Source: Lotus japonicus (taxonomy: Eukaryota > Streptophyta > Magnoliopsida > Fabales > Fabaceae). From it: DNA of 64,000 nt. Below, piece by piece: positions 3,952 to 64,000 of this stretch. How positions within the stretch are numbered: position 1 is the first letter of the stretch; each line of letters starts with the position of its first letter. The notes beneath the pieces are model-generated. The model saw only the letters and a list, made by a program, of their open reading frames with translations, made no database searches and had not been told where the DNA came from. Where the stretch lies: positions 32,853,021 through 32,917,020 of the forward strand of contig NC_080044.1 in NCBI RefSeq assembly GCF_012489685.1, in the 5' to 3' direction. The position numbers and the translations under genes are program-made.

Positions 3952-3963
3952 TCACAGACAAAT

Positions 3964-4710: not shown

Positions 4711-4963
4711 CTATACGAATTTAATAACTCACTTATCCATATTTAATACATACCTAAAAAAGCATATGTAGATGAATTTTTTTAACTTGAGATGACTTAA
4801 AAGAATTTTTACATGAGAGAATCCCGGTGAAAATGCATCAATTAACAAACTCTTAAAAAATTCGACAAGATGGAATGAAAACTTGTGCAGTATGGTGAAC
4901 TCTTGAGTGTAAATAGTTCACAATGTTCGTTGGCAAGGTAGCACTTTTGCTATTTATAATAAG

Positions 4964-5693
4964 ATATGGTGCTTCGTTGTCTCTCCTCAATGCAACCTAT
5001 CGATCTGTATGGGACTGTAGCCCACTAGAACAGCCATATTTGCATGTCCCAATTGTTACTAGTTAGTATACTTCTCATCTACAACCTTTGTTAAAGAAAT
5101 TGTTACTGTATATTATATAAATTTTAAATATAATAAAGTTTCATTTAATTGAATACAACTTTTTATTATTTTATAGTATTAAATTTATCTATTATTGTAT
5201 CAACAATAAATTTTTAAGCAATTAACTAGTAATTTTTTTTTTCAAAAAAAATAAACTAGTAATTTTTTGAGAATGTCATCTTCAATCTTGCTACGAAACC
5301 GTGTCTTAACAACTCCCATTAGAGAAAAAAGTCTACGGAAATATTGTTGTTTTTCAATTTTTAACTAAAGTCTGATAAAACTCAAATAAACTAGACATTT
5401 ATTTATTTATAGACTATATAAAGTGAGAGTTTTTGCAGCCTTGGGGGTAAATCTGTCAATCAACAAATAATTTCAAAGACTATGAAACTTGACAATGGAT
5501 ATTTTGGTAAAGATGCATTTTATTTCACTTGGATTGAACCTCAGCCGTCCATTTCATAGCAATCTCATTGTCTTTCTACATTCTCTTTTTTCTTTGTTTT
5601 TGAAAGTGTCTTTCTACATTATCAAATGCATTCACTAAATTTAATTGTAAAAATCAATGTGCATTCATTCATATGGGGTCCTAAAAAACCTTT
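4964..5693. other. AT-rich intergenic stretch, no gene seen
   Basis: Nothing recognisable in either strand. It ends at the target-site duplication of the hAT element at 5694-5701. Confidence 0.45.
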
Positions 5694-44137: not shown

Positions 44138-44336
44138 GGTGTGTGTACTGTGCTGTGCAAGAGGAAAACGCAGCAGAACCAGATCAGGGACAACTCACAC
44201 GAGCGGTTTTGGAACTCCATGCCGCCGCGCTCCACTAGCCACTGCGCTCAGCCCCTTGCTGTCGACGACGCCACGCTAAACCTTCAGTTTAAGTTTTTGT
44301 TTACGGTGTGTTTTTTTACAAAACGTTCAGGGTTTC
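43809..44336. other. Unassigned DNA with a (GA)14 microsatellite
   Basis: The microsatellite is at 44107-44134. The GC-richer part at 44140-44280 opens short frames on both strands without a known motif. It ends where the Athila-like LTR begins. Confidence 0.4.
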
Positions 44337-46929
44337 TGATGACCCAGAATTTAAGGCTATTTTCCTAGTTTATTTGCATGCATTTTACTATATTATTTAA
44401 TATATTTTAGGACACTTTAGGCTTATTTCATGCATTTTAATGTTTTTATTTAATTTAACATTTTTCTACATTTTATATTATTTTCTAGATATTATTAGGA
44501 TTTATTTACTTTAATTTAGTATTGAATAAGTTTATTTTAAGGTGTTATCTTATTTTTATCTCTTATCTATTTTTATTTGCTTTATTTTAGCAGAAGATTT
44601 GGAGAAAAAAATGAGAAATCATTAAAAAAACGGAAATTCAAAGAATTATGGACGCTGGGATCCTGTGTATCGCATGTGCACGATGTTACCACGCACCTCC
44701 GGCGTGATTGCGACGCATGTTAGAGGCTGGAAGTAGATGTACGAGATCCATGAGGTTCTATTAAGGTGTGTCGCTGTACACCATAAGCCATACGCCAGAA
44801 ACACCAGATTCAATAGAATCTTGTCCAATGCTCCTGATTCTCGATGGTGCATCGTTTTACAGGGGGCGTGACTACGCCAGATCATTTTCTGCTTCAGATA
44901 GGACAAAAAACGCACAGAACACGAAAATCACTATAAATTCCGTTTTGACCTATTTTTTGGGGATCTTTTCATCTTTTCTTTTCTCTTAAACCTAATAAAC
45001 ACTTTTGGGAGATTCTTGGAGGCCTGGTGGAGAGCAAGGTTAGGCCCTTGAGGGCCGGTGTCAGGGCCATGGAGGAGGTGACAACTTCTCTGGACGTTTA
45101 TGACTTCGTTCTATTTTGGGTTTTGCTTTTCTCTTTACCTATTTTTGTGTTGACTCTCTTTTAGTATTTGGGATGAAAAAACTTGATTTGTCTCTTATTC
45201 AATATACTATTTTGCAATTATAAGTATGAATTTTCATTATTTGGTGTTTCTCTCTATGCTAAATGTTTCAATTGGTCAATTGGTGATTTTAAGGGTTTAT
45301 ATTAATTCGTAAATAGATTGGGAAATTGATATGGATTGATGTAGGCTTAGTTCATAGAAATGGGAAAATTTCCTATGTCTTAGGTTATTGATTCTCTTTG
45401 CGCGTTCATGTATCATTTGTCAATATGATGTTTTTTTAGGATTTGCATGACAATTGAGAAGTTGGTGTGAATTTAGTTAATGAGAGGAACCACCCTTGCT
45501 TTAGTCATCTTAAGAAAGACATGTCTTAGGTAGGGTTTAGGTTTTCCAGGTGACAATAAGAGACATTAACTCTTAGGTATGAATATCATGAGTTGGGAAA
45601 GAAATCTATACCGAGTGACAAGTCGGGATACTCACCTCTCTAGGATAGGATTATCTAGTAGGAACTATTAGGATTTGTTGAGTGACAGTAAGAGATTCTA
45701 TCCACTAGGACATGAACTTTTTGGGTTAGGAACAGAGCTTGGGAGTGTCTTATCGAGTAGGTATGTGCTATAATGCTCCTTTTATGATTACCAGGGCTTA
45801 AGGAATTAAGGCTCGGTTCTTAATTGGTAGATTCACTTATCTAAGGAATTAGTAGGTGAATAACTCTTATCGGCATCTTAAATGTTAATTTCATCTTATA
45901 AAAGTATATTGGTTGAGAATAAGTTGTTGTTCCGTGCTAGAACATAGAGAGGAAATGTAGTACCCAAAGTATAAGGAAGGTGATGAGAATGCTTAGAGGG
46001 AGAAGCTCTAACCACTTAGAGAGAGAAAATGTAACTGAATTTCAATGCTATTATTACTCAAATGAGTCAAGAGTCCCATACAATTGGTATTTCCCCCTAT
46101 TTATTGAAGTGGGGTTAGGCTTTGGCGCCTTTAACCTGCGTAAATGGGCCAGTTGGGACTCGGGAAGGGTAGCCCAATGTCATGGCGCATTCCGTGCCAA
46201 AGGTCAAGTTCCCTGGGCGAGGGACCCTGGGGTCTCGCCCAGTCCACAAGTCCACAAGACACCGAGCTCAAAACATGAGAGCTAAGTGTGTCTTTAAGTA
46301 AGAAATAAGGCGAAATCCCTAAGAATACTGAATAGGACCTAAAAAACCTTAAAAATCTAGAAGTGAAAAACAATGGTCAACATGGCTTGATAAATAAAGC
46401 CTTTACAACCAACACATTGGGTCTCCAGCCGTGCCCTCCTCTTCCGGGCGATCCAAGTCCACAAGCAGGCTTGTGGCGAAGGCTTCTAGTCCGCCCGCCT
46501 CAACATAGTTACGCACGTGCCTTGAATCGTAATACTCTATCGCGTGTTGCGTCCATCCCACGCGTCAAGCCTTGAAATGACGCCAGGGTCAGTGAATCCC
46601 CAAAATCTCAACCGCTACCTTTGACATGTCCTTTCCAGTCACATCACAACTTTGACAACTTGAATTTCAACCAATCGGCAGCAACCGTTGCGACTTTCAT
46701 TTGATGCGGCACCCCCGTTTCCCCAAAATCCGTGTCACGTCTCCTGAGGTAATCATTCCACCTTTTCCATGATGAGGCACGTTCTCCCAACCGTCTCTTA
46801 TCCTAACCTTTAAATTCAACTCCTTTCTCTCACTTGCCACTTTTAAAATCCTCCACAGCCTTGCAAAGTTAACCAAACTATTACCTCAGCATCTTCCCCT
46901 CTTCCGTCTCAGTTCCTTTCTGTAAAAAG

Positions 46930-47859
46930 ATGACTCCTCAACGCCGCACCAAAAGATCCTCACGACTCCAAAGCCCCGCCCAAACATCCCGTGCCCCGGC
47001 TATTCCTCCTCCTGCCGGGGGGCATCCCCTTCATGAAAATGAAAAGAATGCCTTCTGGCACAAAATTCTTTCTACCCTCCCTTCGTCCGCTACCAGAGAA
47101 CCCGTTCTGAAAGCCATCTGCCAACCCTCCGAGTTATCCACCGACAAATCCATCGCCGAGCTGGCCCGCCGAGTCGGAGGGTTATGCCATGAAAAATCTC
47201 TCGAACATGTCCTTATTACCAGCCGGGGCTTGAGCATCCGTCGCCCCTGGAAGTGCCGCACACTTGAGCAAGGCGCGGAAGAGCCCCACTTCTTCTACGT
47301 TTATGAGTACTTCTTTCTCGACCTGGGGCTCAAACTAAACTTCTCCCCCTTTCTTTGCCAGGTTTTGAGAGAAATCAACGTGGCCCCAAGCCAACTTCAT
47401 TTGAACGCCTGGGCCTTCGCTCGATGCTATGAGATCCTGTGTGATGCCATCAACCTTGAAGCCAAAACCTCCTATTTCTTTTACTTCTATGGCGTGGAGC
47501 CAAGATCCTTGAAAGCTGAGGCTCCCGGGTGGGTATCCCTGAAGTCTCGAACGGGTCGACAACGTCTTCATCCTTATAAGAGTAATATCAAGATGGGGCC
47601 CGAGCGCCAATATTTTCGCGTAATCGTGCACCCCTCCTATCCTGAAGCTTTCACACGCCGGGATGGGACTGCTTCATTTCCTCTTTACTGGACCGAGGAT
47701 CCCTGCGATGTTCCTCCGCCACCGGACAAATCACTGGATAATGAAGACAAAGCCATCCTCGGCTTCCTCGCTGGGTTCCGCATCCTAGAATGCTCCAAGT
47801 TGCTCGAAGCCGCTCGCGAAAACACACTCCACATTGGTATGAACTTCAGGAAGAGGTGA
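46930..47859 (+). pseudogene. Antisense additional ORF (putative gypsy-type transposon domain)
   Basis: 309-codon frame on the strand opposite to gag. The centre (about residues 120-190, including FFYVYEYFFLDLGLKLNF and FLCQVLREINVAPSQLHLNA) matches the plant-specific 'putative gypsy type transposon' domain (PF04195). The N-terminus is basic and Pro/Ser-rich (start ATG with AAAAAG before it). The frame ends early, and the C-terminal coiled-coil part continues in another frame (47790-48266), so there is one frameshift. Function is unknown for the family. Confidence 0.78.
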
Positions 47860-48266
47860 AGGCAAAAACGGAGTCAATCAACGCCGGGAAGGCCACTTGC
47901 ATCATTCAAGGCCAAGAGATCGCTTTCCTTCAGAGCGAGTTGGGAGCGACGAATGAGGCCCTGGCTGACGTGAGGTCGCAACTTGAGGCAGAAAACCCGG
48001 CCCTCGCAGATATGGACTACAAGACCAAGACCTCTCAAGCCAGGTTGGTAGCTGACGTGACTGCTGAGGTTGTGGAAGAACGTGGCCGCGACTTCTTTCT
48101 TGCCAAGGCTCAAGTTCAACATCTTTATCAAGGAATTAACCTTGATGGAATGAGAGCTTTCAAGAAGATTACCCCACGTGGGCTTGTTGGCCCTGACGAT
48201 CCTCCGGGCTTCACTGCCGAGCATTTCGCTGCTGCTGAAATCGTGAGGGAAAAATCGTCAATATAA
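47790..48266 (+). pseudogene. C-terminal coiled-coil part of the additional ORF
   Basis: Continues the additional ORF after a frameshift. Heptad-like stretches (FLQSELGATNEALADVRSQL) predict a coiled coil, then LDGMRAFKKITPRGLVGP and an end at VREKSSI. This matches the usual C-terminal layout of plant gypsy-type ORFs of this kind. Confidence 0.65.
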
Positions 48267-48362
48267 AGATAACTATGTTTTGTCATCTTTTGTAAATATC
48301 ATCTTTTGTAATGGATTAATGTTGTTATATTTTTCTTTATTTTGACTTCCTCTTACGTCTTT

Positions 48363-48471
48363 CCGTCGCCATTTAGGCAATTTTTCGCTCGCCCGTCGCT
48401 ACTTAGGCAATTTTTTGTTCGCCCGTCGCCATTTAGGTAATTTTTTGTTCGCCATTTAGGCAATTTTTAGG
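48363..48471. repeat. About 3.7 copies of a 30-bp tandem repeat
   Basis: CCGTCGCCATTTAGGCAATT type units at 48363, 48392 and 48422, plus a shortened one at 48452. They lie between the additional ORF and gag, where Tat-lineage elements often hold tandem repeats. Confidence 0.85.
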
Positions 48472-48797
48472 AATTTTCGCCTTGCGTTCGTGTAGCGATT
48501 TGAAGGTGTGCCGAAGAAACTATGACTTTTGCTCATTTTGAGGCTTTCTTTCACACCAATATTTCCCGTAAGAGCAGGTGTGGCCTTGGCGGTTACATCC
48601 CGCCAAGGGCTTACACTGCTGGGGGCCCATTGACCATATGGGTTTACCCAGACTTATGCCTAGTTTATTTTCTCGCCCATATTTCGGGGAGGCCTCGTAT
48701 TCCCAGATTTCAGGGAGACTAAGGGGATAAGGGACCCGTCCCATTTTGGGGATGAGTCGCTTTCCCTCACACCTCGCCAACGAGAGGTCAGCGTTTC

Positions 48798-49010
48798 GCG
48801 CCGGACTTTTCTAGAGCAATCCCCAGACATCAAGGTCATTTTGGGATTGCCAACTTCGGGGAATTTTTCCCACCGAGCGAACGTGACGTGTTAGTTGAGT
48901 TGCTATTTGGATCGCATCAATTCGCGCCGGACTTTCCCGGAGCAATACTCAGACATCAAGGTCGTGTTAGGATTGCCACCTTCGGGGAATTTTTCCCACC
49001 GGGCGACCGT
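48798..49010. repeat. Direct duplication of ~90 bp
   Basis: CGCGCCGGACTTT, CAGACATCAAGGTC and CTTCGGGGAATTTTTCCCACC occur in the same order at 48798-48880 and 48922-49003. They diverge at about 10% of positions. Confidence 0.82.
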
Positions 49011-49080
49011 ATCTTTTGAATTAGGAGTATTTCTGGTGAATATCCTTTTTGTCAGTAGTCGGCGTTTGGCGACGATCCTC

Positions 49081-49455
49081 TCACCGGCGTTCGTCTTGTT
49101 GGCGAGACCCCCTGTACCTGTTCCCCTGCTGTCGCTCTCCGTTCCAGCGGTCGCCACGTTCACTCAGCTGCGACCGGCCTACTCGGATGAGCCTCTCGAT
49201 TTCATTCTTCAGAGTAAAGCAATCCCCTGTGTCATGTCCTGCTGAACGGTGGTACTCACACCACTTGGTCTTGTCCGTCGTTGCCCGCGGCGGGTCTTTC
49301 CTTCTTTCGCCCTCCTCAACTACATGCGTCGCCTTAACTTCACGTAGCAGCTCTTTTAGGTGGGCGTTCAAGCTTTTTCCTGCCTCCTCTCGGCGACGAG
49401 GGTCAGTCTGATGCCAGGGCCGGCGTCGCTCAAAATTTTCCTTTTTGGGATACAA
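49081..49455 (-). pseudogene. Tat-like gag C-terminus with zinc-knuckle-like motif
   Basis: Reads WCEYHRSAGHDTGDCFTLKNEIERL, the variant knuckle C-x2-H-x4-H-x4-C typical of Tat/Athila gag proteins, in a Lys/Arg-rich context. It is in a different frame from the upstream gag part (frameshift). Confidence 0.75.
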
Positions 49456-49829
49456 AGATTCCCTCGGTGCCTTTTCCTGTCCCGTCTTCTGCTTCCCTCT
49501 GCTTTCTCCTTGCTCGGCTTGTCCTCTGGTGACACGTACCTCTGTTCGCCATCCTTCTCTACCTTCGCGCGCCTCTGCTTAAAAGCGTCATCCTCCTCGT
49601 CAAGTATGTATGTGTTCGCCTGGGCTCGCACCTTCGCCATTGACTTGGCTGGCTTTCAGCTCAATTTACTATTTAGCTTTCTTGGCTGCAATCCGTTTTT
49701 AAAGGTGCGGGCGCAGGCATTTGGCTCGGATTCCTCTATCTTTACTGACGCAGCGCTGAACCGCTTCACGTACTGCTTCAAAGTCTTGCCCTCGGATTGA
49801 CGCACATTGTACAAATCTTCAATCGTCAC
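49368..49829 (-). pseudogene. Tat-like gag, middle part
   Basis: In the same frame as the upstream gag. After the stop at 49830 it continues VTIEDLYNVRQSEGKTLKQYV, then a second stop (about 49658), then MAKVRAQANTYI. The pattern LYNVRQ-EGETLKQYV-RF is standard for Retrotrans_gag. Confidence 0.7.
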
Positions 49830-50507
49830 CTACTTAGTTTTGCTCGCCGAGAACTGGACAAGGAATTTGGACGAGAAGTCACGAAAGTTCGTGATGGATC
49901 CTCGGGGTAGAGTCGTGAACCATGCCATTGCTGTTCCTTTGAATGTGGCTGGAAACATCCTACACTTGACCGCATCAGAAGCGGCGCTGATCACCATCTT
50001 CGTGTTTAAATACAACAAGTGCTCCTTGGGATCAGCCTTTCCACTGTAGGTTTCCAGCACTATATTCTTCATATTGTGTGGAATGGCAACTTCTCTCACT
50101 GCCGCTGAAAACGGTTCGAACTCCGCCACAGCCTCTACCTCGCGCTCTCCCTCATCTTGCTGCTCAATGCGGTAATACTCTAGCTGCTCTTGGAGATACT
50201 CGTTTCGCTGTTTTATATCGTCAATACTACTAATCAGACGCCTCCAATCTTGACTGGAGATCGGTGCCTGAGGTGCCTGAGTCTCTTCTCCTGACGTCGT
50301 TGGTGACCTCTGCTGCTCTGGCGAGGACGGCGGTGAGGGCAACGTGGGTGTTGGAGAAGGAGGAGGTGGAGGCGGAGCAGGAGGAGTCACCTGATCCGTC
50401 TCCTCACGTTGAACCTGCGCACGTCGTGGCTTGCCTCTGACGCGGCGCATCGGCAAAACATGCCGATGCTCTGGATCGTCATCATGTCGTCTACGGCGTG
50501 TTTCCAT
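49830..50507 (-). pseudogene. Tat-like gag, N-terminal part
   Basis: The start is placed at METRRRRHDDD (50507), 20 codons inside the longer ORF. A basic N-terminus and proline-run linker are followed by IVLETYSGKADPKEHLLYLN and AMAWFTTLPRGSITNFRDFS, the conserved Retrotrans_gag core. It ends at an in-frame TAG. Gag would package element RNA into particles. Confidence 0.85.
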
Positions 50508-50688
50508 CGGAATTGGAGAATCTCTCTCGAAAAACTCGAAAACGGAAGAAACTGTATGGCAAGTCAAAGAATCTTCCTCTGGATCACAATCTCTAAAAAA
50601 CTCGAGAACAATCGCTTAGAAGAACAAGCTCCACTTTTCTGAATCACAATTCACGTAGTCCGGGAATAGAAATCTACCGATCCCCACA

Positions 50689-50700
50689 GACGGCGCCAAA
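50689..50700 (-). other. Primer-binding site of the Tat-like element
   Basis: On the minus strand TTTGGCGCCGTC starts at the LTR edge. TGGCGCCGT pairs with the tRNA-Asp 3' end and the match is lost after nine bases. Confidence 0.6.
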
Positions 50701-51301
50701 TGTCCCGTGCTAGAACATAGAGAGGGAAGGTAGTACCCAAAGTATGAGGAAGGTGATGAGAATGCTTAGAGAGAGAAGCTCTAACCACTTAGAGAGAGAA
50801 AATGTAACTGAATTTCAATGCTATTATTACTCAAATGAGTCAAGAGTCCCATACAATTGGTATTTCCCCTATTTATAGAAGTGGGGTTGGGCTTTGGCGC
50901 CTTTAACCTGCGTAAATGGGCCAATTAGGCCTCGCGAAGGGAAGCCCAATGTCATGGCGCGTTCCCTGCCAAAGGTCAAGTTCCCTGGGCGAGGGACCCT
51001 GGGGTCTCGCCCAGTCCAGTTGTAAATCAAGTGAACTCATTTTTCAAATACGTTTTCTTCTTTATTTGCCTTTGTGAACTTCTTTTATCTTTTCATTTAT
51101 CGTTTTCCTTTATTTAAGTTAAATAAAAAGCATCTCATGTTTAAACTTTTCAAACAATGTCTAGCTAGTGAGATTAATACGTAGTAAAACAATCCCTGTG
51201 GAGACGACAAAACCCGATACTATACTACGATTGAGTCTTGAAAGGGATTTGATAGTAGTTAGTGGAGGAAAACCTCTTCATTAAATATCCTTTCATCAAA
51301 A

Positions 51302-51319
51302 TGGCGCCGTTGCCGGGGA
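51302..51319 (+). other. Primer-binding site of the Athila-like element (18 nt, tRNA-Asp)
   Basis: TGGCGCCGTTGCCGGGGA, complementary to nt 76-59 of plant tRNA-Asp(GUC), three bases after the LTR. This is the standard Athila primer site. It is followed by 29 more tRNA-complementary bases. Confidence 0.9.
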
Positions 51320-51348
51320 CCGAACCCGGGTCACCCGCGTGACAGGCG
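51302..51348 (-). other. 47-nt cDNA-like copy of tRNA-Asp(GUC) 3' part
   Basis: The inverse complement of 51302-51348 starts CGCCTGTCACGCGGGTGACC and ends CCCCGGCAACGGCGCCA. It covers the anticodon loop (CTGTCAC with anticodon GTC), the 3' anticodon stem, the variable region, the T arm, the acceptor strand and CCA of plant tRNA-Asp. Compared with the Arabidopsis tRNA as I remember it, the only difference is at 51320. That base maps to tRNA position 58 (76 minus 18), normally 1-methyladenosine, where the copy implies G. Similarity ends at 51348, inside the 5' anticodon stem. It is not a tRNA gene (no 5' half, CCA encoded). Confidence 0.88.
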
Positions 51349-51351
51349 AAC

Positions 51352-51903
51352 AATGGAGTTGCAGATCATCTATCCAGAATTGAAGGCGGAGAATCTTCCA
51401 TAACTCCTATTTCTGAGGAGTTCCCAGAGGAGAATTTTTTTTCTCTTTCTTGTACTTTGCCATGGTATTCAAATTTTGCTAATTATAAGGCTGTTGGTGT
51501 GTTACCCCAAGAGATGAATTGGCAACAAAAGAAGAAATTTTTGCATGATGTGAAATTTTATTTGTGGGATGAACCCTTTTTATATAAATGTTGCTCAGAT
51601 GGCATGATTAGGAAGTGTGTGCCTGAAGAAGAAGTAGAAAACATATTATGGCACTATCATAGTTCTGATTATGGAGGTCATTTTAGTGGTGAAAGGACGG
51701 CTGCGAAAGTCCTACAAAGTGGTTTTTACTTATCCTCACTATTTAAGGATAGTCGCTCATTTGTTGAGAGATGTGATCGCTGTCAACGAACTAGTAACAT
51801 ATCTAGGAAGAATGAGATGCCCCTAAATAATATTTTAGAAGTTGAAATTTTTTACGTATGCGGCATTGATTTCATGGGACCTTGTAAGACCAAGATTTGG
51901 TCA
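51352..51903 (+). pseudogene. Athila-like pol fragment: RNase H end and integrase zinc finger
   Basis: Frame starting NGVADHLSRIEGGESS, the standard end of gypsy RNase H. It continues through the linker to the integrase HHCC finger (HYHSSDYGGHF with two His, ERCDRCQR with two Cys) and the first core residues GIDFMGP with the first catalytic Asp. The copia LTR inserted at 51904 cuts it off. Gag, protease and reverse transcriptase are missing between the primer site and here. Confidence 0.85.
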
Positions 51904-52156
51904 TGTAGTACAACTCTATGTTTGGATGATTACATGTTAACTATTGTGTATGAACAATTGTGGTACTCTAACATTGTTTTTCTGAGTGTTTAAATGACAA
52001 GCTCTGACTCTGGTCAATACTCACACATATCAGAAGCATTATGCCCAAAGAGTAACCAACGCAACGCTTTCGCACTCACTATGTTCTGATTGAACAGTAG
52101 TATATGCTTCAGAAGTTCTGAAGATGACAAGCTCTGATGTGGATTCAGATCACTTG

Positions 52157-52255
52157 AAGTTCTGAAGACAGAAGTACTGAAGGTCCAGAAGCTCTGAAGG
52201 TCCAGAAGTTTTGAAGGTCCAGAAGCTGAGAAGTGAAGATTCTGAAGTCCAAAAG
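52157..52255 (+). repeat. Minisatellite of CTGAAGGTCCAGAAG units in the LTR
   Basis: About five imperfect 15-18 bp units (TCTGAAG-TCCAGAAG). The second LTR has a shorter, altered version near 58965-59070. Confidence 0.75.
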
Positions 52256-52555
52256 TAATCTAGCTCTGAAGACCAAGTACTTCCAACTCTGAGGTCTAGA
52301 AGCAGAAGATACGAAGGTCAGAGGATCCAAGCTTCCCTCTGACTCTGATCAACAAGCTTCACAAGTTCCAAAATGAAGAGTCACGTGATCAGAAGTCAAT
52401 TAGGATAAGGCTCACGTTGCTATCCAAGTACAAAAGCAATTGTACAATTCTGACGACCTTACCTAAGACGTTCAGCCATAGCAGAATCTGGAAGTTATAG
52501 ATTTTCCCTCCAACGGTAGCATTCCATGCAACAGATACAACCCTAATACTTGGAG

Positions 52556-52564
52556 TATAAATAG
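52556..52564 (+). promoter_or_regulatory. TATA box in copia LTR 1
   Basis: TATAAATAG in the context CTTGGAGTATAAATAGAGG, identical in the second LTR. Confidence 0.7.
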
Positions 52565-53094
52565 AGGATGAAGATGGAAGATGCCGCTAAGAAACTTTGT
52601 GCAAGCTTAAGCAACCATTCAATATTCTCTTAGCAATCTTTCTTCAATCGTTCTTATTGTGTTTACCTTAGCTTTCTGAGAAGCATTCAATGTAAACCTA
52701 AACCTTCAAACAGTTAGTTTGTTTTTCCTTAAGGGACCAAGGTTGGTCAGCTCCTTGAGAAGACTAAGAGTGTGAATCTTAGTGTTTACTAGTTTATCAT
52801 ATTGTTAGTCACTGAGCAGGTTGCTAGTGAAGTTGTAACAAACTCTGAATAGTGGATTGCCTTCATTTTAAGAAGGAAGAAATCACCTTCACGGGTGGAC
52901 TGGACTAGCTTGAGCGATTATCAAGTGAACCAGGATAAAATCCTTGTGTGCTTCTCTTGATCTCTTATCTTTGCACCTTGTGTTATTTGTTCGAGAGATT
53001 TGCCTAAATCTCAAGTGGGAAAGTTTTTGATTTGAAAACGCTATTCAAACCCCCCCTTTTTTTATCGTTTTTCATACCTTCAATTGGTATCAGA

Positions 53095-53106
53095 GCGCAA
53101 GTTCTG
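53095..53106 (+). other. Primer-binding site, initiator tRNA-Met
   Basis: TGGTATCAGAGC two bases after the LTR, complementary to the 3' end of plant initiator tRNA-Met, the usual copia primer. Confidence 0.88.
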
Positions 53107-53157
53107 ATTACCACACCTAATAGTGTTCAGTAATCCGGGCTGGTGTGAAAAACTGAG

Positions 53158-53821
53158 ATGACTACCACCAGTGATGCGCATAAAGATGTTTATAGTGCAA
53201 AGCCTCCTGTCTTTGATGGTCAAAAGTTTGAGTACTGGAAAGATAGAATCGAAAGCTTCTTTCTGGGTTTCGATGCTGATCTCTGGGATATTATCGTGGA
53301 TGGCTACACGCGTCCAGTTGATGCTGATGGCCAGAAGATCTCAAGAGAGAGCATGACGGCTGAGCAGAAGAAGAAATACTCAGAACATCACAAAGCTAGA
53401 ACCATTCTTCTCAACGCTATCTCTTATGAAGAATACCAGAAGATAGCACATCGTGAGTATGCTAAGTCTATCGTTGATTCTTTGAAGATGACACATGAAG
53501 GAAAAAAAGAAGTGAAAGAGACAAAGGCGTTGTCTTTGATCAGGAAGTATGAATCCTTCCAAATGGAACCCCGCGAATCTATTGAGGATATGTTTTCCAG
53601 ATTCCAGTTGATTATTGCTGGAATAAGACCCCTCAACAAAAGCTACACCACTGCTGATCATGTTATGAGGATCCTTAGAGGTCTTCCTGAAAACTGCGTG
53701 CCTTTGTTAACTTCTTTGAAGTTTTCAAGAGACATTGAACAGTTGGGTCTGGAAGAACTCATAAGTATGCTGAAGTGTCATGAGTTAGATCGTGCTGAGC
53801 ATCAGAATCACAGGAAGAAGT
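53158..53821 (+). pseudogene. Copia copy 1 gag, N-terminal part
   Basis: Starts MTTTSDAHKD. It contains KPPVFDGQKFEYWKDRIESF, then SLKMTHEGKKEVKETKALSL and MFSRFQLIIAGIRPLNKSY, the UBN2/copia gag core. It stops at an inserted sequence (53822 onward), so the nucleic-acid-binding part lies 2.7 kb further on. Confidence 0.85.
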
Positions 53822-56158
53822 TGTAACACCCCCTTTTTCATATTGTTTTATTTAATAAAATTTATCAGAGTTTAAAAACATATCAAGGGAGTATTACACT
53901 TCTTCACGAAAACTCATTAAAATTAACACTGATTGTGTTTGAAAATTTATAAGTTCATATGCTTTTCAAAGAATGAATTATTTCTGCCAATAAAATTTCT
54001 AAACCAGTTAGATAATCCTAAGGTGCATAAAATCACTTATTTAAATAGGTTTATCTTCCATGATATTCCAATAAAATTCATCATACTCATAACTGAATTT
54101 CATAAGCACTTCGGCCATCAACAGTACGACATCGCCATAATTTAGAAAATCATTCAACAACTTCCATAAGGAGAGGTTATAAAATCCTCTCAACAGAAAA
54201 GTAAAAGTAACGTAAAATATCTACCCAGTGTTACATTACAGAGCAAGACACTTATTTTATAATAATAATAATAATAACATAAACTAAGACTCTCCGAAGC
54301 TACTCCTCATGAGCCACATCTCTACCTCCAGTACCTGTACGATATCGCATAGAACATCATTCCAACAGAAGGGTGAGAACTTACATTGTATAAAATATAG
54401 CATAACAAAGAGCAAGTAAACAATTCAGATTCTGCTTTATAAACTCTTCACCTTTTCTTTAAAATTTGAGTGATTATAATATTTGCGCTCAAGACAGTTT
54501 CACAATTCTTATTAATGTTTCGGAAGATTATAAGCTTTAAGAAGAATAATAATTTGACTTTACCACAACAGCAAAACAATTCACCAACAAATCACCAAAC
54601 ACATAAAACCACTGAAAACGTGAAACTTAGTGTGTGAGACTCTAATGCATGCATGTGGTACCAATTGTTAACCTTAGCGGTATCACCGCGTCCACTCCAG
54701 ACAGTTAACCACCAATGAAGTCCACTCCAGACTTCCAGAACCACTCCAGTTTTGGGACAAGCCTCAATTTTCCGAGGAAAACCGACACGTTGCCTGTTGA
54801 CTAAATGAAGTGTATTTCGTGCAAAAACTCATAAATTAAAACATGCAATTTGAGACAACTCCAGCCCCAAATATATAACATATTTTCTCACCAAATTCCA
54901 TAACGGAAATCACACCAAAATTGCACAAAATAACATTTCAATATAATTATCAAATTATTCACTATTCCACCGAAAAACTAGCAACACAAAATCATCAAAT
55001 GTCTCACATCAATTACCAGAATCAGTTCCATAATCAATCCCAGAAATAAGCAGAAACATAGCAATCTTGCAGATAATTCTGGTACTAAACAAGCAGTCGA
55101 AAAATTATGAAACTTTTACCAAACATAGCCTTACACGTTAGCTTTCATATAAAATTGGTTTCACCCAATTTGGAATTCTGTAGAGAGAGTTATGCTCTCT
55201 ACAGCACATGCTATTAGGGTGTCTACGAGCAGAAACAGAGTGAGCTTGCAGATAATTATGGTATTGAACCAACAAGCCAAAAATTATGAAAATATAACCC
55301 TATGAGTTAGCTTTCATACAAAATTGGTTTCACTCAATTCGGAATTCTTTAGAGAGAGTTATGCTCTCTACAGCATAGCCTGCTAGGGTGTCTGCGGGAA
55401 AAAACAGAGTGAACATGCAGATAATTCTGGTACTGAACCAGCAATCCAAAAATTATGAAAATATTACCCAACATAGCCCTATGAGTTAGCTTTCATACAA
55501 AATTGGTTTCACGCAATTTAGAATTATGTAGAGAGAGTTATGCTCTCTACAGCACAGATTGTTAGGGTATCTGCGGGCAGAACAGAACCCAATTTTCCCC
55601 AGAACCTTAATTTCGCTCAAAATCAATTTTGCTCACCACTTGTAAATACTCGACACAGTCTCTCAGTTCTGAATTTTCAAAGAAGTTGGGGTTCCTTCAT
55701 GTTAAACTCAACCTCTGTTATTCTACAATTATACAAGGTAAATTCAAACCCTTACCTCTTGAAGATCAAAGTCTAGGTTTTCTTCTTTTTTCTCCTCTCC
55801 TTGCTTTTCACGTGTTCTCTTTGTCTGCTAACTTCTACAATTCTCAAATTCTGACTTTTCTCTTTCTAATTCACTCATAACCCTTAAATAGTCTCACAAT
55901 GGTCCCCACTCCCAACTACTCACTTAAAACCTAAAACCTTTATTGTCTATATCACATAATCACTTAATTATCTAATAAGATCACTTAATCACCTTATTAT
56001 ATAATGAAATATCATAATCACCTTATTATATAGCAAAATCATCTATTTATTCAAATAATTATATAACCTAATAATAATTAAAATAAATTAATAAATAACC
56101 TAATAATAATTAAAATAAATTAGTAAATAACCTAATAACGAAAAATGGGGTGTTTTTT
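53822..56158 (-). mobile_element. Inserted LTR-like sequence of a Tekay-related family
   Basis: The left edge is TGTAACACCCC, the inverse complement of the GGGGTGTTACA end shared by the other Tekay-like LTRs. The likely other end reads AATGGGGTGTT near 56146-56156 and is mutated. Inside are phrases typical of these LTRs. No matching TSD was found (left GAAGT). No ORF. Confidence 0.5.
55066..55582. repeat. Three tandem copies of a ~170-180-bp repeat
   Basis: Units 55066-55244, 55245-55413 and 55414-55582 share TGCAGATAATTCTGGTACT, AGTTAGCTTTCATACAAAAT and AGAGAGAGTTATGCTCTCTA. Identity is about 85-90% by eye. Confidence 0.88.
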
Positions 56159-56548
56159 TCTTAAAGTTTAAACACATTAATTAATCTTGTATTTAAAATA
56201 ATTTATAATCAGCATCTTGTGCAAGAAAAATTTGAGAAATACTAAAATTTAAACAAAACCAATCACGCCCTTATAATTTTAAGACATAATTTTAATTTTC
56301 AACCACATGTTAACAAATTATTCAACTGAACAAAGAAAATGAAATTGATATATAATCCACAAGAAAACTAACCGGCTATAACTAAGGCAACCAACCATAC
56401 CGCCTGTTAGGGTATTAGAAAACAGTCCCACATATATGAATTCGAGTTTATGATTCCACATATGAAGTTACTGTGTTCTCATAGAGCTATTTTCTGCTGC
56501 CCTAACCAGAGAGAAATATGGATGTTCCATTGCTTCTCTTGCCGTTAG
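56159..56548. other. Unassigned part of the insertion in copia copy 1
   Basis: AT-rich sequence between the LTR-like part and the point where gag resumes (TCTATAG...GAAATCCAAATCTG). No family recognised. It may belong to an older second insertion. Confidence 0.35.
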
Positions 56549-57783
56549 TCTATAGTCTTGAAATCCAAATCTGAAAAGGTTAAAACTCTCCAAGCAGCTG
56601 CAGAAGAGTCTAAAGAAACCTCTGAAGATTCTAATGAAGATGAGCTAACCTTGATCTCCAGAATGCTCAACTGCATCTGGAAGCACAGGAAGAGCACGAC
56701 AGAGGCTCAGCAAAGGCCAGAGGAAAGCATGAATCTTCATCTGGTCAGAAGAAGTCTTCATCAAAAGAAGTCACTTGTTTCGAATGCAAAGAATCAGGGC
56801 ACTACAAGAGTGATTGTCCAAAGTTGAAGAAAGACAAGAAGCCAAAGAAGCATTTCAAAGCAAAGAAATGTCTCGTGGTGACTTTTGATGACTCAGAGTC
56901 AGAAGAAGTTGATTCTGATGGTGAAATCGTTGAATGAGTCATGGCAGTTGTCAAGGACAAAGAAGCAGAGTCTAAAGATGCACCTAATGCTGAATCTACA
57001 TCAGAGGAAGATCTAAACTTTGATGATGAAAATGAGGTATTCGCTTCTTTCTCAACCTCTGAACTTAAAGATGCTTTGTCTGAAATTATGGATAAATATA
57101 ACTCTCTCTTAACTAAGCATAAAAAGTTGAAAAAGGATTTCTCTGCTGTCTCCAAAACTTATACTGAACATGAGAAAAGAATTTCTGAATTAAAAGAAAG
57201 TAATCATGCTTTAGTAAACTCTAACTCTGTGCTCAAAAATCAAATTCTCAAGTTAGAAGAAGTTGTTTCTTGTGATGCCTCTGATAGTAAGAATGAATCT
57301 AAATATGAAAAATCTTTTCAAAGATTCCTAGCTAAAAGCGTAGACAGAAGCTTAATGGCTTCAATGATCTATGGCGTAAGCAGAAATGGAATGTATGACA
57401 TTGGCTATTCTAGACCCAGTAGAAATGAGCCTCCTATGCCTAAGGCAAAATCTTTATATGAACATTTTGTACCCTCTGGTATTATATTGCCTGAACCATT
57501 GCCTGATAAAGTTGCTGATCCCCCTCTCAAAAAGGGAACTTTCTCTATGTCTAAAAATCATGCTCAAATTCCTTTACATTATCATGTTGAGAAACCCAAG
57601 GTTGTCAGAACCTCTGAGGTAACTAACAAGAAAGGACCCAGAAAGTGGGTACCTAAGGATAAGATTATCTATGTTGCAGATATCCTTGATCGCTCCACTG
57701 AAACACCAATCATGGTATCTGGACAGTGGATGCTCGCGACACATGACGGGAGAAAGAAGTATGTTCCAAGACCTAAAACTTAA
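56549..57783 (+). pseudogene. Copia copy 1 gag, C-terminal part
   Basis: Contains the zinc knuckle CFECKESGHYKSDC (about 56782-56823) after a frameshift, then a stop (TGA at 56936-56938) and an open 280-codon frame from 56941 with SELKDALSEIMDKYNSLL coiled-coil character. That frame ends WMLATHDGRKKYVPRPKT and overlaps the protease frame by 113 bp. Confidence 0.78.
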
Positions 57784-58716
57784 GCCTGGAGGCGAAATTG
57801 GTTTTGGTGGCAACGAGAAGGGTAAAATTGTTGGTTCTGGTACTATTGGTATTATTAATAGTCCATGCATTGATAATGTTCTGTTGGTAGATGGTTTAAC
57901 TCACAACTTATTGTCTATAAGTGAATTAGATGACAAGGGTTATGATGTTATTTTCAATCAAAAGTCTTGCAGGGCTGTAAGTCAGATCGATGGCTCTGTT
58001 CTGTTTAATAGCAAGAGGCGGAACAACACTTATAAGATCAGATTATCTGAGTTGGAAACTCAGAAAGTAAAGTGCCTTCTTTCTGGTAATGAGGAGCAAT
58101 GGGTATGGCATAGACGGTTAGGGCATGCCAGTATGAGAAAGATTTCTCAGCTGAGTAAGCTTGACCTTTTCAGGGGCTTACCCACTCTGAAGTTCTCTTC
58201 AGACGCTCTTTGTGAAGCATGTCAGAAAGGCAAATTTACAAAAGTCCCGTTCAAGGCAAAGAATGTTGAATGGAAGAATAGAACTCTTCAAGAGATGGCT
58301 AGAACCATGCTTCAAGAAACTGACATGGCAAAGCACTTCTGGGCAGAGGCAGTAAACACAACATGTTACATTCAGAACATGATCTCTATCAGACCAATTC
58401 TAAATAAGACTCCTTATGAATTGTGGAAGAATATAAAGCCCAACATTTCTTACTTTCATCCTTTTGGTTGTGTTTGCTATGTTCTGAATACTAAGGATAG
58501 ATTGCATAAATTTGATTCTAAATCTTCAAAATGTCTATTACTTGGTTACTCTGAGCGATCTGAAGGCTTTAGATTTTACAATACTGAATCTAAAACTATT
58601 GAGGAATCAATTCATGTTAGATTTGATGATAAGCTTGACTCTGACAAGTCAAAGCTAGCTGAAAAGTTTGCAGATATGAGCATAACTGTTTCTAATGTAA
58701 GATCAAGTTTTGATCG
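57671..58716 (+). pseudogene. Copia copy 1 pol: protease and deleted integrase
   Basis: Protease active site WYLDSGCSRHMTG, then the GAG-pre-integrase/HHCC region (VWHRRLGHASM with two His, CEACQKGKF with two Cys). After KNV the frame jumps to EWKNRTLQEMARTML. Compared with copy 2 exactly 111 codons (333 bp) are missing, including both catalytic aspartates, with no frame change. Reverse transcriptase and RNase H are absent, and LTR sequence begins soon after SITVSNV. Confidence 0.85.
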
Positions 58717-59904
58717 AGTAGTACAACTCTATGTTTTGATGATTACAAGTTACCATTTTAGTATGAACAATTATGGTACTCTAACGTGTTTTTCTGAGTG
58801 TGCTTTTTACAGGCTCTGACCTTAATATTATCTCACACAAATCAGAAGCACTGTGCTTAAAGAGTGACCCAAGCAACGCTTTCGCAAACTCTATGTTCAA
58901 TCTTAACAGTAGAAAAGCTTCAGAAGATCTGAAGTCAAACAAGCTCTGATATGGACTCAGTCACTTGAAGTTCTGAAGATCCAGACGTTCTGACAACCCA
59001 GACACTCTGAAGGTTCAGATGTTCTGATGGTGTAGAAGACTCTGAAGATCCAGAAGCTGAAAAGTGGAGACTCTGAAGTCCAGAAGCAAAATGGCTCTGA
59101 AGACCAAGTACTTCCCTCTGAGTTCAGAATCAGAAGGTACAACGGTCAGAGGATCCATGCTTCCCTCTGACTCTGATCAACAAGCTTCACAAGTTCCAAC
59201 ACGAAGCTCTCCTCTGATCAGAAGTCAAACAAGGTTAAAGGTCAAGTCACTATCCAAAGTACAAAAGCAAATGTACTATCCTGACGACCTACCTAACATT
59301 CTCAGCCACAGCAGAAGCTGGAAATTCCAGATCTGCCCTCCAACGGTAGCATTCCCATGCAGCGTTCAAACCCTAATCCTTGGAGTATAAATAGAGGCTG
59401 AAGATTGAAAGATGCGGTTGGAAGAATCTCTCACGCGCAAGCTATATTAAAACTTTCTAAGCATTCTTTCATCTTGAATTCATTGTGTTTACTACAAGCT
59501 TTTTAGAAGCAATCTCTTTGTAAACAATCTTTCTTAAACAGTTGTTTAGTTTACCTTTAGGAGATCAAGGTTCATCGGATCCTAGAGAAGACTAAGAGAG
59601 TGAATCTTAGTGTGAGCTAAGTCAGTGTATTGTAAGTCACTTGTAGGTTTCAAGTGCAGTTGTAACAATTACCTGATTAGTGGATTGCCTTCATTCTAAG
59701 AAGGAAGAAATCACCTTAACGGGTGGACTGGACTAGCTTGAGTGATTCATCAAGTGAACCAGGATAAAATCCTTGTGTGCTTTTCTATCTCTTATCTTAA
59801 GCACTTTATTTGTTCTCGAAAGATTTGCTAAAATCTTTAAGGTGGAAGTTTTATTCTGAAAACGTTATTCAAACCCCCCATTTCTACCGTTTTTCATACC
59901 TTCA
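58717..59904 (+). repeat. Second copia LTR (shared between copies 1 and 2)
   Basis: 1188 bp. It begins AGTAGTACAACTCTATG (AG instead of the expected TG) and ends TTCATACCTTCA. It is followed by a complete primer site and gag, so it is the 5' LTR of copy 2, and it sits where copy 1 should have its 3' LTR. Confidence 0.82.
59386..59394 (+). promoter_or_regulatory. TATA box in copia LTR 2
   Basis: TATAAATAG in the same conserved context as in LTR 1. Confidence 0.7.
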
Positions 59905-59906
59905 AT

Positions 59907-59918
59907 TGGTATCAGAGC
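59907..59918 (+). other. Primer-binding site of copia copy 2
   Basis: TGGTATCAGAGC, complementary to initiator tRNA-Met, two bases after the LTR. Confidence 0.88.
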
Positions 59919-59977
59919 GCAAGTTCTGATTACCACACCTAACAGTGTTCAGTGATCCGGGCCGGTGTGAAAAACAA

Positions 59978-60631
59978 ATGGCTACCACCAGTGAGATGCA
60001 AAAAGATGGTTACAATGCAAAGCCTCCCATGTTCGATGGTCAAAGATTCGAATATTGGAAAGACAGAATAGAAAGTTTCTTTCTGGGCTTCGATGCAGAT
60101 CTCTGGGATATCATTGTGGATGGCTATGAGCGTCCAGTTTATGCAGATGGCAAGAAGATCTCCAGATCAGAGATGGCTGCTGAGCAAAAGAAGCTCTACT
60201 CACAGCACCACAAAGCTAGAGCAATTCTTCTGAGTGCTATTTCCTATGAAGAGTACCAGAAGATTACAGATCGTGAGTTTGCCAAGGTCATCTTTGAATC
60301 TTTAAAGATGTCTCATGAAGGAAACAAGAAAGTGAAAGAATCAAAGACGCTGTCTTTGATCCAGAAGTATGAATCCTTCATCATGGAGCCAAATGAGTCC
60401 ATTGAAGATATGTTTTCCAGATTTCAGTTGTTGGTAGCTGGAATAAGACCTCTCAACAAAAGCTACACTACAAAAGATCATGTCATAAGGGTCATCAGAA
60501 GTCTTCCTGAAAGCTGGATGCTTTTGGTGACCTCAATAGAGCTTACAAGAGATGTTGAGCGTATGAGTTTAGAAGAACTCATCAGCATACTGAAATGTCA
60601 TGAGCTGAGTGCTCAGAGATGCAAGATCTGA
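59978..60631 (+). pseudogene. Copia copy 2 gag, N-terminal part
   Basis: The start is placed at MATTSEMQKDG (59978), aligned with copy 1, rather than at the ATG 11 codons earlier in leader sequence. It contains PPMFDGQRFEYWKDRIESF and MFSRFQLLVAGIRPLNKSY. It ends by frameshift after SAQRCKI, and the next frame continues with MQDLRKKSIAMKSKSEK. Confidence 0.85.
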
Positions 60632-60987
60632 GGAAGAAATCTATAGCCATGAAATCCAAATCTGAGAAGGCTAAATCTGAGAAGTCAAAAGCTCTCCAAG
60701 TTGAAGCAGAAGAATCTGACGAAGCATCAGGAGATTCTGATGAAGATGAGCTGACTCTGATCTCCAAAAGACTCAACCGCATCTGGAAGCACAGGCAGAG
60801 CAAGTACAAAGGCTCTGGAAAGGCCAAAGGAAAGTCTGAATCCTCATCAGGCCAGAAGAAGTCCTCAATCAAGGAAGTCACGTGTTTCGAGTGCAAAGAA
60901 TCAGGGCACTACAAGAGTGACTGTCCAAAGCTGAAAAAGGACAAAAAGCCAAAGAAGCACTTCAAGACAAAAAAATTGTTATGGTGA
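60619..60987 (+). pseudogene. Copia copy 2 gag, zinc-knuckle part
   Basis: Lys/Ser-rich with the CCHC knuckle CFECKESGHYKSDC that binds RNA. It ends by a second frameshift in an A-run (ACAAAAAAATTG); copy 1 has a shorter A-run there. Confidence 0.82.
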
Positions 60988-61886
60988 CTTTTGATGAATC
61001 AGAGTCAGAGGATGTTGACTCTGATGGTGAAGTTCAAGGACTCATGGCTATTGTCAAAGACAAAGGAGCAGAGTCAAAGGATGCAACTGACTCTGACTCA
61101 GCATCAGAAGAAGATCCTAACTCAGACGATGAAAATGAGGTATTCGCTTCTTTCTCAACCTCTGAACTAAAACATGCTTTGTCTGATATTATGGATAAGT
61201 ATAACTCTTTATTGTCTAAGCATAAAAAGTTGAAAAAGGATTTATCTGCTGCTTCTAAGACTTCTTCTGAACATGAGAAAATTATTTCTGATTTGAAAAA
61301 TGATAATCATGCTTTAGTGAATTCTAACTCTGTGCTTAAGAACCAAATTGCCAAGTTAGAAGAAGTAATTGCTTGTGATGCCTCTGATAGTAAACATGAA
61401 TCTAAATATGAAAAATCCTTTCAAAGATTCCTGGAAAAAAGCGTAGACAGAAGCTTAATGGCTTCAATGATCTATGGCGTAAGCAGAAATGGAATGCATG
61501 GCATTGACTATTGTAAACCTAATAGAAATGAGCCTTCTATGCCTAAGGCTAAATCCTTATATGAATGCGTTGTTCCCTCTGGTACTATATTGCCTGAACC
61601 TTTACCTGTTAAAGTTGCTAACCTCCCTCTCAAAAAGGGATCCTTCTCCATGTCTAAATATCATGCAAAAATTCCTTTACATTATCATGTTGAGAAACCC
61701 AAGGTGATCAGAACCTCTGGGGTAACTAACAAGAGAGGACTTAGAAAGTGGGTACCTAAGGATAAGATTATCTATGTTGCAGATATCCTTGATACCTCCA
61801 CTGAAACACCAATCATGGTATCTGGACAGTGGATGCTTGCGTCACATGATGGGAGAAAGGCGTATGTTCCAAGAGCTAAAACTTAA
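60981..61886 (+). pseudogene. Copia copy 2 gag, C-terminal acidic/coiled-coil part
   Basis: Acidic start (DESESEDVDSDGE), then a coiled-coil region (SELKHALSDIMDKYNSLLSK) and a conserved tail RKWVPKDKIIYVADIL. It ends VPRAKT and overlaps the pol frame by 113 bp, exactly as in copy 1. Confidence 0.75.
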
Positions 61887-64000
61887 GCCTGGAGGCGAAG
61901 TTGGCTTTGGTGGCAACGAGAAGGGTAAAATTGTTGGTACTGGTACTATTTGTGTAGATAGTAGTCCATGCATTGACAATGTTTTATTGGTAGACGGCTT
62001 AACTCATAACTTATTGTCTATAAGTCAATTAGCTGACAAGGGTTATGATGTTATTTTCAATCAAATGTCCTGTCGGGCTGTAAGTCAGATCGATGGCTCT
62101 GTTCTGTTTAACAGCAAGAGGAAGAACAACATTTATAAGATCAGATTATCTGAGTTGGAAGCTCAGAATGTGAAGTGCCTTCTTTCTGTTAATGAGGAGC
62201 AATGGGTATGGCATAGACGGTTAGGGCATGCCAGTATGAGAAAGATTTCTCAGCTGAGTAAGCTCAACCTTGTCAGGGGCTTACCCACTCTGAAGTTCTC
62301 TTCAGACGCTCTTTGTGAAGCATGTCAGAAAAGCAAATTCACAAAAGTCCCTTTCAAGGCAAAGAATGTTGTCTCAACCTCAAGGCCGTTGGAACTTCTG
62401 CATATCGACCTGTTTGGACCAGTGAAAACTGAGTCTATAGGTGGCAAGAGATATGGGATGGTCATTGTTGACGACTATAGCCGCTGGACATGGGTAAAAT
62501 TTCTAACCCGCAAGGATGAGTCTCATGCTGTGTTCTCTACCTTCATAGCCCAAGTGCAAAACGAGAAGGTTTGTAGGATTGTGCGTGTCAGAAGTGACCA
62601 TGGTGGAGAGTTTGAGAATGACAAGTTTGAGAGTCTGTTTGATTCCTATGGAATTGCACATGATTTCTCTTGTCCCAGAACTCCTCAACAAAATGGGGTT
62701 GTTGAGAGGAAGAACAGAACTCTTCAGGAGATGGCTAGAACCATGCTCCAAGAAACTGGCATGGCTAAGCACTTTTGGGCAGAGGCAGTAAACACAGCGT
62801 GTTACATTCAGAACAGAATCTCTGTGAGACCAATTCTGAATAAGATTCCTTATGATTTTTGGAAGAATATAAAACAAAACATTTCTTATTTTCATCCTTT
62901 TGGTTGTGTTTGTTATGTTCTTAACACTAAGGATAGATTGCATAAGTTTGATGCTAAGGCTTCTAAATGTCTATTACTTGGTTATTCTGATCGATCTAAA
63001 GGTTTCAGATTTTATAATACTGATGCTAAAACAATTGAAGAATCTATTCATGTTAGATTTGATGATAAGCTTGACTCTGATCAGTCAAAGCTAGTTGAGA
63101 AGTTTGCAGATTTAAATATAAACGTTTCTGACAAAGGCAAAGCTTCAGAGGAAGCTGAGCCAGAAGAAGAAGAACCAGAAGAAGAAGCTGGTCCCTCTGA
63201 TTCATAATCTCAGAAGAAGAGTAGAATCACTGCGGCTCATCCTAAGGAATTGATTCTGGGCAACAAAGATGAACCAGTCAGAACCAGATCAGCCTTCAGA
63301 CCCTCTGAAGAGACCGTGCTCAGTCTGAAAGGATTAGTGTCCTTAATTGAACCCCAGTCAATTGATGAAGCTCTTTAGGACAAGGACTGGATTCTGGCTA
63401 TGGAAGAAGAACTGAATCAATTTTCCAAGAATGATGTTTGGAGCTTAGTGAAGAAACCTCAGAGTGTTCATGTTATTGGAACCAAATGGGTGTTCAGAAA
63501 CAAGCTAAATGAGAAAGGAGATGTAGTCAGAAACAAGGCAAGGCTAGTTGCTCAAGGCTACAGTCAGCAGGAAGGAATAGACTACACTGAAACATTTGCT
63601 CCAGTAGCAAGACTAGAAGCAATTAGACTGCTGATCTCTTTCTCAGTGAATCACAACATAATTCTTCATCAGATGGATGTTAAGAGTGCCTTCCTGAATG
63701 GTTACATTTCAGAGGAAGTCTATGTTCATCAACCCCCAGGTTTTGAGGATGAGAAGAACCCAGACCATGTTTTTAAGTTGAAGAAATGTCTCTATGGTCT
63801 GAAGCAAGCTCCCAGAGCATGGTATGAGAGACTCAGCTCATTCCTTCTGGAGAATGAGTTTGTGAGGGGTAAAGTAGATACAACTCTCTTTTGCAAAACT
63901 TACAAAGATGATATCTTAATTGTGCAAATTTATGTTGATGATATTATATTTGGTTCCGCTAATCAATCTCTATGCAAAGAATTTTCTGAGATTATGCAGG
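61774..64000 (+). pseudogene. Copia copy 2 pol: protease, integrase, reverse transcriptase (runs off the window)
   Basis: Protease DSG (residues 18-20). HHCC finger H147, H152, C181, C184. Integrase core D212 (HIDLFGP), D275 (RSDHGGEF) and E311 (QQNGVVERKNRTL). After a TAA at 63205-63207 the same frame goes on, has a TAG at 63376-63378 (DEAL-stop-DKDW), and continues into reverse transcriptase: GTKWVFRNKLNEKG, RLVAQGYSQQEGIDY, MDVKSAFLNGYI, CLYGLKQAPRAWY and the catalytic YVDD at 63931-63942. RNase H and the 3' LTR lie beyond the right edge. Both stops fit C-to-T changes of CAA/CAG. The lineage looks SIRE/Maximus-like. Confidence 0.88.

Follow-up and report, generated by a model that had tools for sequence, protein, structure and literature searches.

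Apparent read-through of primer tRNA-Asp at the switch point of a hybrid LTR retrotransposon in Lotus japonicus

Within the window analysed here (the whole 64,000-nucleotide stretch, C4:32853021-32917020), the complement of tRNA-Asp(GUC) continues from the 18-nt primer binding site (PBS) of an LTR retrotransposon past tRNA position 58 to nt 29, and the tail of this copy is fused to the pol gene of a different element family. We consider it likely, at a probability of roughly 0.87, that plus-strand strong-stop DNA read through 1-methyladenosine 58 (m1A58) of the primer, switched to the minus strand of another element, was completed and was then integrated. The components of this reading that can be read in the DNA itself are the tRNA copy, the mismatch at position 58, the switch from family A to family B, the B-type right end and a 5-bp target-site duplication.

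The extended primer site and the host tRNA-Asp genes

The tRNA complement occupies 51302-51348, spanning the 3' CCA to nt 29 at 46 of 47 identical positions. By sequence match it comprises the 18-nt PBS (51302-51319, forward strand; complement of tRNA-Asp nt 76-59) and a copy of nt 57-29 in 28 exact bases (51321-51348, forward), separated by the sole mismatch, a C at 51320 (forward) where T is expected opposite A58. It is followed by a junction A at 51349 (forward), a position at which the tRNA complement and the displayed family B pol copies both read G. The reference was a host gene with CCA added (75 letters), and a plant tRNA-Asp 3' fragment printed in the cited passage of PMC7510087, GTTCGATCCCCGGCAACGGCGCCA, is concordant with it. 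Both the 47-nt complement with its single mismatch at 58 and the arrangement of a usual PBS followed by tRNA complement down to about nt 29 had been described in an earlier note made from the letters of this DNA, and comparison with the host gene bears them out; that note overlooked the fusion of the tail to another family's pol. A chance origin is excluded by the 28 matches in an unbroken row together with a backward-read control pattern that had 0 matches in the genome. An Rfam search on the 51302-51348 site gave 0 matches for this partial tRNA copy, and collections of plasmids, viral contigs and prokaryote contigs, which hold no plant DNA, returned nothing useful for tRNA-extended primer sites, the four viral contigs that matched the 18-mer continuing in sequence without tRNA extension.

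A second element in the window served as a control, its tRNA-Asp PBS (34277-34294, reverse strand) having no extension. This element (31322-35657, reverse) has LTRs of about 1.37 kb that are 97% identical and an interior of about 1.6 kb without an ORF of 150 aa, and is probably non-autonomous. Elsewhere in the window, repeats in direct and inverted orientation, about 165-570 bp long and up to 99% identical, are densely packed at 3781-4965.

The genome (G000; 553.7 Mb in 65 contigs) was searched for tRNA-Asp with a 35-base core pattern, allowing up to three mismatches and leaving position 58 open. The 31 places returned consisted of 23 tRNA genes, six extended primer sites including that of the window, and two doubtful twins. 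All 23 gene copies carry A58, lack an encoded CCA and were called tRNA-Asp(gtc) by ARAGORN. A host gene with G58, which the earlier note had named as grounds for abandoning its interpretation, was therefore absent among the genes returned, and such a gene was rejected on these 23 copies as the source of the C at 51320. The genes show the letter A58, and this residue was presumably methylated in the primer tRNA.

A family A left end joined to family B pol

The left side of the element begins with GTTTC (44332-44336), the left copy of the 5-bp target-site duplication, and continues into the first part of a family A 5' LTR (TGATGACCC..., 44337-45927, forward), aligned pieces of which are 82-91% identical to L006-L008. 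The element is Athila-like and putatively of the Athila lineage (Ty3/gypsy). Its LTR is split by an unrelated nested LTR element (45928-51018), whose terminal repeats (45928-46246 and 50701-51018) are 95% identical and whose target duplication, GTTGT at 45923-45927 and 51019-51023, was read from the sequence. The remainder of the LTR (51024-51298, forward; U5 end ...TTTCATCA) is separated from the PBS by an AAA spacer (51299-51301, forward). Among the 446 candidate relatives of 51200-51400, 40 were scored, one being the window itself; for each of the other 39 the match runs out where the PBS does, at query 118-121, and in all seven whose leader was read it runs (T/C)TGTG(C/A)TT..., unrelated to tRNA. 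Related copies carrying the 47 bases as ordinary ancestral leader, the other outcome that had been said to overturn the interpretation, thus did not appear among the 39 scored.

Directly after the junction base lies family B pol (51350-51882, forward), which is entered where RNase H meets integrase (NGVADHLSRIE...) and has an Integrase_H2C2 domain, then interrupted by nested copia-type elements (51883-64000, forward) and resuming outside the window at about C4:32926333 (93%). This remnant begins only at the end of RNase H and includes the integrase zinc domain, and nearly invariant residues are altered in the pol adjoining the tRNA copy. The four nearest genomic pol copies are 93-94% identical and match from 51350 onward; upstream of the junction, the displayed family B copies read ...AAGGGGAAGG or ...AAAGGGAAGG, unrelated to tRNA. 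Of five pol relatives examined upstream (87-94% identical, the fifth at 87%), three had a PBS about 4.1 kb before pol, with an LTR end ...GGAGTTATCA-AGTTT(T/C) and the leader TTGCGCTTTAG. No similarity was found between window 51019-51319 and these three family B LTR ends beyond the 18-nt PBS (E limit 1e-3). One A-type LTR end could be paired with pol by position (C1:72721477 / C1:72717083), and its pol is only 79% identical to that of the window. Because pol belongs to another family than the LTR, an A-to-B switch is placed, on sequence comparison, at the end of the tRNA copy, one base on, and two parent families are joined there at one point in the manner of a template-switch hybrid.

The right copy of GTTTC, the same five bases that precede the left A-type LTR, lies outside the window at C4:32934045-32934049. 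In the 20 kb past the window there are two sense B-type LTR pieces in order (both in L086), the last of which terminates ...GCCTAGGAGTTATCA and is followed by GTTTC, the junction reading TTATCA|GTTTC; no A-type LTR was detected in these 20 kb (L085/L086). A B-type right end had been anticipated from the hybrid model, though this anticipation was not recorded in advance. A single target duplication hence flanks the hybrid, whose right interior is rearranged, and since GTTTC flanks LTRs of both types, the hybrid would have formed before integration; against this, a 5-bp match at one site is expected by chance about once in 1000. Between the two LTR pieces lies inverted family B sequence, consisting of pol (L086 2889-1646), a short inverted LTR piece and an inverted leader that adjoins the final U5 piece with CGCAA common to both, and a second short inverted B-type LTR piece precedes the first sense piece. 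Inverted family B internal sequence in this right part was observed across L086 939-6963. The right side therefore appears to hold further switches or a nested insertion, and pol apparently does not connect with the right end in the simple way, which counts against the explanation we favour.

Over-extended primer sites and errors at position 58

The earlier note had also proposed looking through the genome for tRNA complement beyond 18 nt, and patterns with the CCA complement and an open position 58 recovered seven further cases with LTR context. Together with the window copy (tRNA-Asp, 47 nt, C58), the eight carry complements of tRNA-Asp or tRNA-iMet of 28-75 nt that end at differing tRNA nucleotides. 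L052 (C3:16852110; tRNA-Asp, 59 nt, A58) has the reciprocal switch, from a B-type LTR (93% to L033) to a point inside an A-type LTR, where 138 nt are 93% identical to window 45621-45757, and its landing site GGGATACTCACC is similar to the tRNA tail GGGAATACTTACC. L045 (C2:49716202; tRNA-Asp, 52 nt, T58) continues into sequence leading to another PBS, and L064 (C1:44511269; tRNA-Asp, 65 nt, T58) into coding-looking sequence that has a 95% identical counterpart further downstream in L045; up to the PBS the two are 92% identical over 1.28 kb. Two loci are palindromic. In L063 (C6:4076269; T58), a complete 75-nt tRNA-Asp copy sits between inverted LTR arms that are 98.5% identical over 1.32 kb, the whole measuring 2722 bp, with GATGC directly duplicated outside the arms as the insertion's own target duplication. 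In L061 (C5:10462514; T58), a complete tRNA-Asp copy is followed by partial tRNA again, a whole 5.8S rRNA (146.9 bits in Rfam, covering all of the model, 1-154 of 154) and an inverted arm that is 93.5% identical over 1.5 kb, the sequence read stopping short of the outer ends; its right arm reads LTR-AGTTTT-TGG and then the 5.8S rRNA complement from its 3' end.

The remaining two cases involve tRNA-iMet. For L088 (C4:47100860; 50 nt, A58), 40 of 473 candidate upstream relatives were scored, and none of the other 39 matches beyond query 188, which is no more than a base away from the 15-nt primer site. A pattern for this family gave 281 matches; in most among the matches listed, TGATGGGG succeeds the initial 13 bases of the PBS, and most of those listed continue TGATGGGGAAGT, so that PBS nt 16-18 of L088 are of tRNA type. 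L089 (C1:123681274; 28 nt, C58) is a short element flanked, as judged by eye, by a direct repeat of about 75 nt; the final six letters of its LTR together with 13 of its PBS occur at 14 places, and the other 13 of these have no extension. Separately, the tRNA-iMet family gave 11 zero-mismatch pattern matches, L088 included, and several copies (e.g. C1:44763595 and C5:31572091) have unrelated sequence immediately after the 13 PBS bases, C1:44763595 reading AGGTTT as in another tRNA-iMet isodecoder. Such copies may be aberrant plus-strand transfers without read-through.

Further candidates were left out of the main count. L067 and its twin L078 hold a complete tRNA-Asp complement with TGG, T58 and two other mismatches, which ARAGORN calls tRNA-Asp with CCA, and have no demonstrated LTR; L091 (tRNA-iMet, 41 nt, T58, two C-to-T differences) likewise has no demonstrated LTR; and L081 is a 25-nt pattern match apparently to another tRNA. 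L081 (C3:36834186) is a variant of a 25-mer, TGGCGCCGTTTGTGGGGATCGAACC, that is identical at C1:21784660, C1:134226250, C4:26844557, C4:52723119 and C5:37106517 and has a PBS-like start running into a T-loop-like complement of a candidate tRNA; these five places are possibly an inherited read-through leader. A looser search (up to three mismatches, 43 places) yielded no further clear tRNA-Asp case.

Across 304 extension positions in the eight copies, six mismatches were counted, four of them at position 58 (A, A, C and C) and two elsewhere. If each copy keeps its own number of mismatches, at least four of eight at 58 has a probability of about 1e-5, which becomes about 1e-4 without L089 and 0.003 without both L089 and the window copy that prompted the search. 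In this main count L052 was cut at 59 nt and L061 at 72 nt, with one junction-near mismatch omitted in each; when these mismatches, L067 (counted once) and L091 are included, the proportion is 4 of 10 (P = 1.7e-4). Mismatches within the 18-nt PBS were uncounted (two in L063 and one each in L067 and L091), and the search patterns capped the overall number of mismatches within stretches of 25-35 bases while leaving 58 free, a mild bias. Errors are thus concentrated at 58 on few copies, as expected of products of read-through.

The alternative that survives best, which we nonetheless regard as unlikely, accepts the same read-through and explains the C at 51320 as a later T-to-C mutation or a random polymerase error, with no mark of m1A58. 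Half of the over-extended copies (4/8) keep an unmutated T at 58, and the altered near-invariant residues in the adjoining pol indicate that later mutations exist. The base itself is also awkward: in the cited part of an in vitro study, m1A followed by U mostly received dATP, with low G and C signals (PMC4787781), and as tRNA-Asp has A58-U59, the A of L052 fits while the C of the window does not. Random changes would, however, have had to strike 58 here and in three other copies, the coincidence valued above at about 1e-5. According to the passages cited, misincorporation signatures at m1A vary widely by enzyme (PMC7144921) and correct insertion opposite m1A is also reported (PMC4787781); the T58 copies may derive from unmethylated tRNA or from correct insertion. 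We infer that the C at 51320 was misinserted at m1A58 and did not arise by mutation afterwards. Read-through past m1A58 as proposed in the earlier note is accordingly supported, with the reservation that C is not the favoured base in that one study.

Far less probable is that the 47 bases are inherited family leader, joined to pol by a later chromosomal deletion. The identical 25-mer at five places makes an inherited extension conceivable, yet this reading was rejected, as none of the 39 scored relatives has the extension, pol and LTR come from different families, and the same 5-bp duplication stands at both ends despite LTRs of two families. Marginally weaker still is recombination at the PBS between an LTR element and a host tRNA-Asp gene or a retrocopy of mature tRNA. 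Genes for tRNA are present in the genome, recombination at shared bases is conceivable and ARAGORN calls the complete copies of L061 and L063 tRNA-Asp genes; this too was rejected, as the 23 gene copies without encoded CCA are all A58, and copy ends vary, the complete ones entering an inverted LTR or 5.8S rRNA, which better fits copying of RNA. A functional extended primer site under selection, akin to the primer over-extension sequence (POS) adjoining the PBS in lentiviruses and spumaviruses (cited passages of PMC13191261), is the least credible and was rejected, as all 39 scored relatives lack an extension and none has the same exact one, extension lengths differ among the eight copies (28 to 75 nt), and the window copy has pol only from the border between RNase H and integrase onward, interrupted by nested elements.

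Proposed mechanism, precedents and meaning

Under the read-through explanation, plus-strand strong-stop DNA of family A would have copied U3-R-U5, the spacer and 18 nt of the attached tRNA-Asp, passed m1A58 with a C placed opposite, and continued to nt 29. The unpaired tRNA-derived 3' tail would block normal transfer at the PBS, so the strand would have restarted within pol, templated by the minus strand of another element, one of family B and presumably packaged alongside; synthesis would then have run to the family B right end, and insertion by integrase would have made the GTTTC duplication, presumably in this order. More generally, a tail might be rescued on a second minus strand to which it has some homology or little (window element, L045, L052 and L064), while palindromes could arise when two over-long strands prime each other and so acquire two U3 ends (L063, and L061, whose outer ends lie outside the sequence read). 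In L061, reverse transcriptase would also have moved across from the end of the tRNA to 5.8S rRNA, the hops presumably following in that order.

Parts of this scheme have been observed in HIV-1. In passages of PMC1785368 and PMC13191261, m1A58 is a partial stop in vitro, minor products extend as far as A37, and plus strands that grow too long should impair transfer; the HIV complementation study in cells that sought extra tRNA sequence in proviruses found none according to its cited passage (PMC1785368), which counts against our reading. Plus-strand copying past m1A58 of tRNA-Lys3, in vitro and in methyltransferase-mutant cells, resembles what we propose, but as described in those passages the HIV-1 products are intermediates, whereas the plant copies are integrated and involve tRNA-Asp and tRNA-iMet. 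The lentivirus and spumavirus POS is likewise a primer-tRNA complement immediately after the PBS, described in the cited part of PMC13191261 as a consensus portion of the viral genome, with room for stops at nt 55 or 54; the plant extensions, in contrast, span 10-57 nt, occur as single copies and are missing from scored relatives. Passages of PMC12220202 recount HITME recombination in HIV-1, with 63 nt of tRNA-Asp and 65 nt of tRNA-Glu, and tRNA-Gly between MMLV LTRs, in which reverse-transcribed tRNA was similarly joined to retroviral DNA with deletion or rearrangement. Those inserts lay in an engineered hairpin in nef or between the LTRs of a cloned circle, unlike the plant copies, which are continuous with the PBS in genomic elements and have mismatches concentrated at 58.

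Among plant elements, complex LTR retrotransposons of Triticeae offer a likeness in that hybrids with target duplications were proposed to form by template switching before integration (passages of PMC1950507), in a main text that does not contain the terms tRNA or PBS. For Diaspora and Calypso, soybean relatives of Athila, 18 bases are given and the cited portion of PMC1142308 mentions no extension. A review of endogenous retroviruses considered PBS errors caused by modification and, in the passage cited, judged known modifications not to match the mutated positions (PMC7472051), and yeast Ty1/Ty3 reportedly do not inherit primer-tRNA sequence (cited part of PMC5371799). Copying of tRNA into retroelement DNA is thus already known from retroviruses, the retroviral over-extensions and tRNA insertions in the passages cited being the closest precedents. 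Among the matches listed by full-text searches of open-licence papers, none described tRNA over-extension in integrated plant elements or genomic copies whose mismatches peak at 58; what we regard as new is that apparent tRNA read-through at m1A58 is recorded in integrated DNA, and repeatedly.

The eight sites suggest that copying slips of this kind produce hybrid and mirror-image insertions. With somewhat better than even confidence, we propose that over-extended strong-stop DNA regularly yields hybrid, deleted and palindromic plant LTR insertions, that the error at 58 is a heritable record of m1A58 from the time of insertion, and that mutual priming gives mirror molecules with two U3 ends that integrase accepts. 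Complete read-through copies receive tRNA-gene calls from ARAGORN, a warning for annotation. The stop and its failure at m1A58, a phenomenon of in vitro and cell-culture work, become countable in genomes, and the replacement of family letters by tRNA letters at PBS nt 16-18 of L088 bears on the inheritance of primer-tRNA sequence by plant LTR elements. Ultimately, read-through of this kind offers a mechanism for LTR hybrids, leader-to-pol deletions and LTR insertions in palindromic form, and such fossils in DNA might allow an RNA modification to be read.
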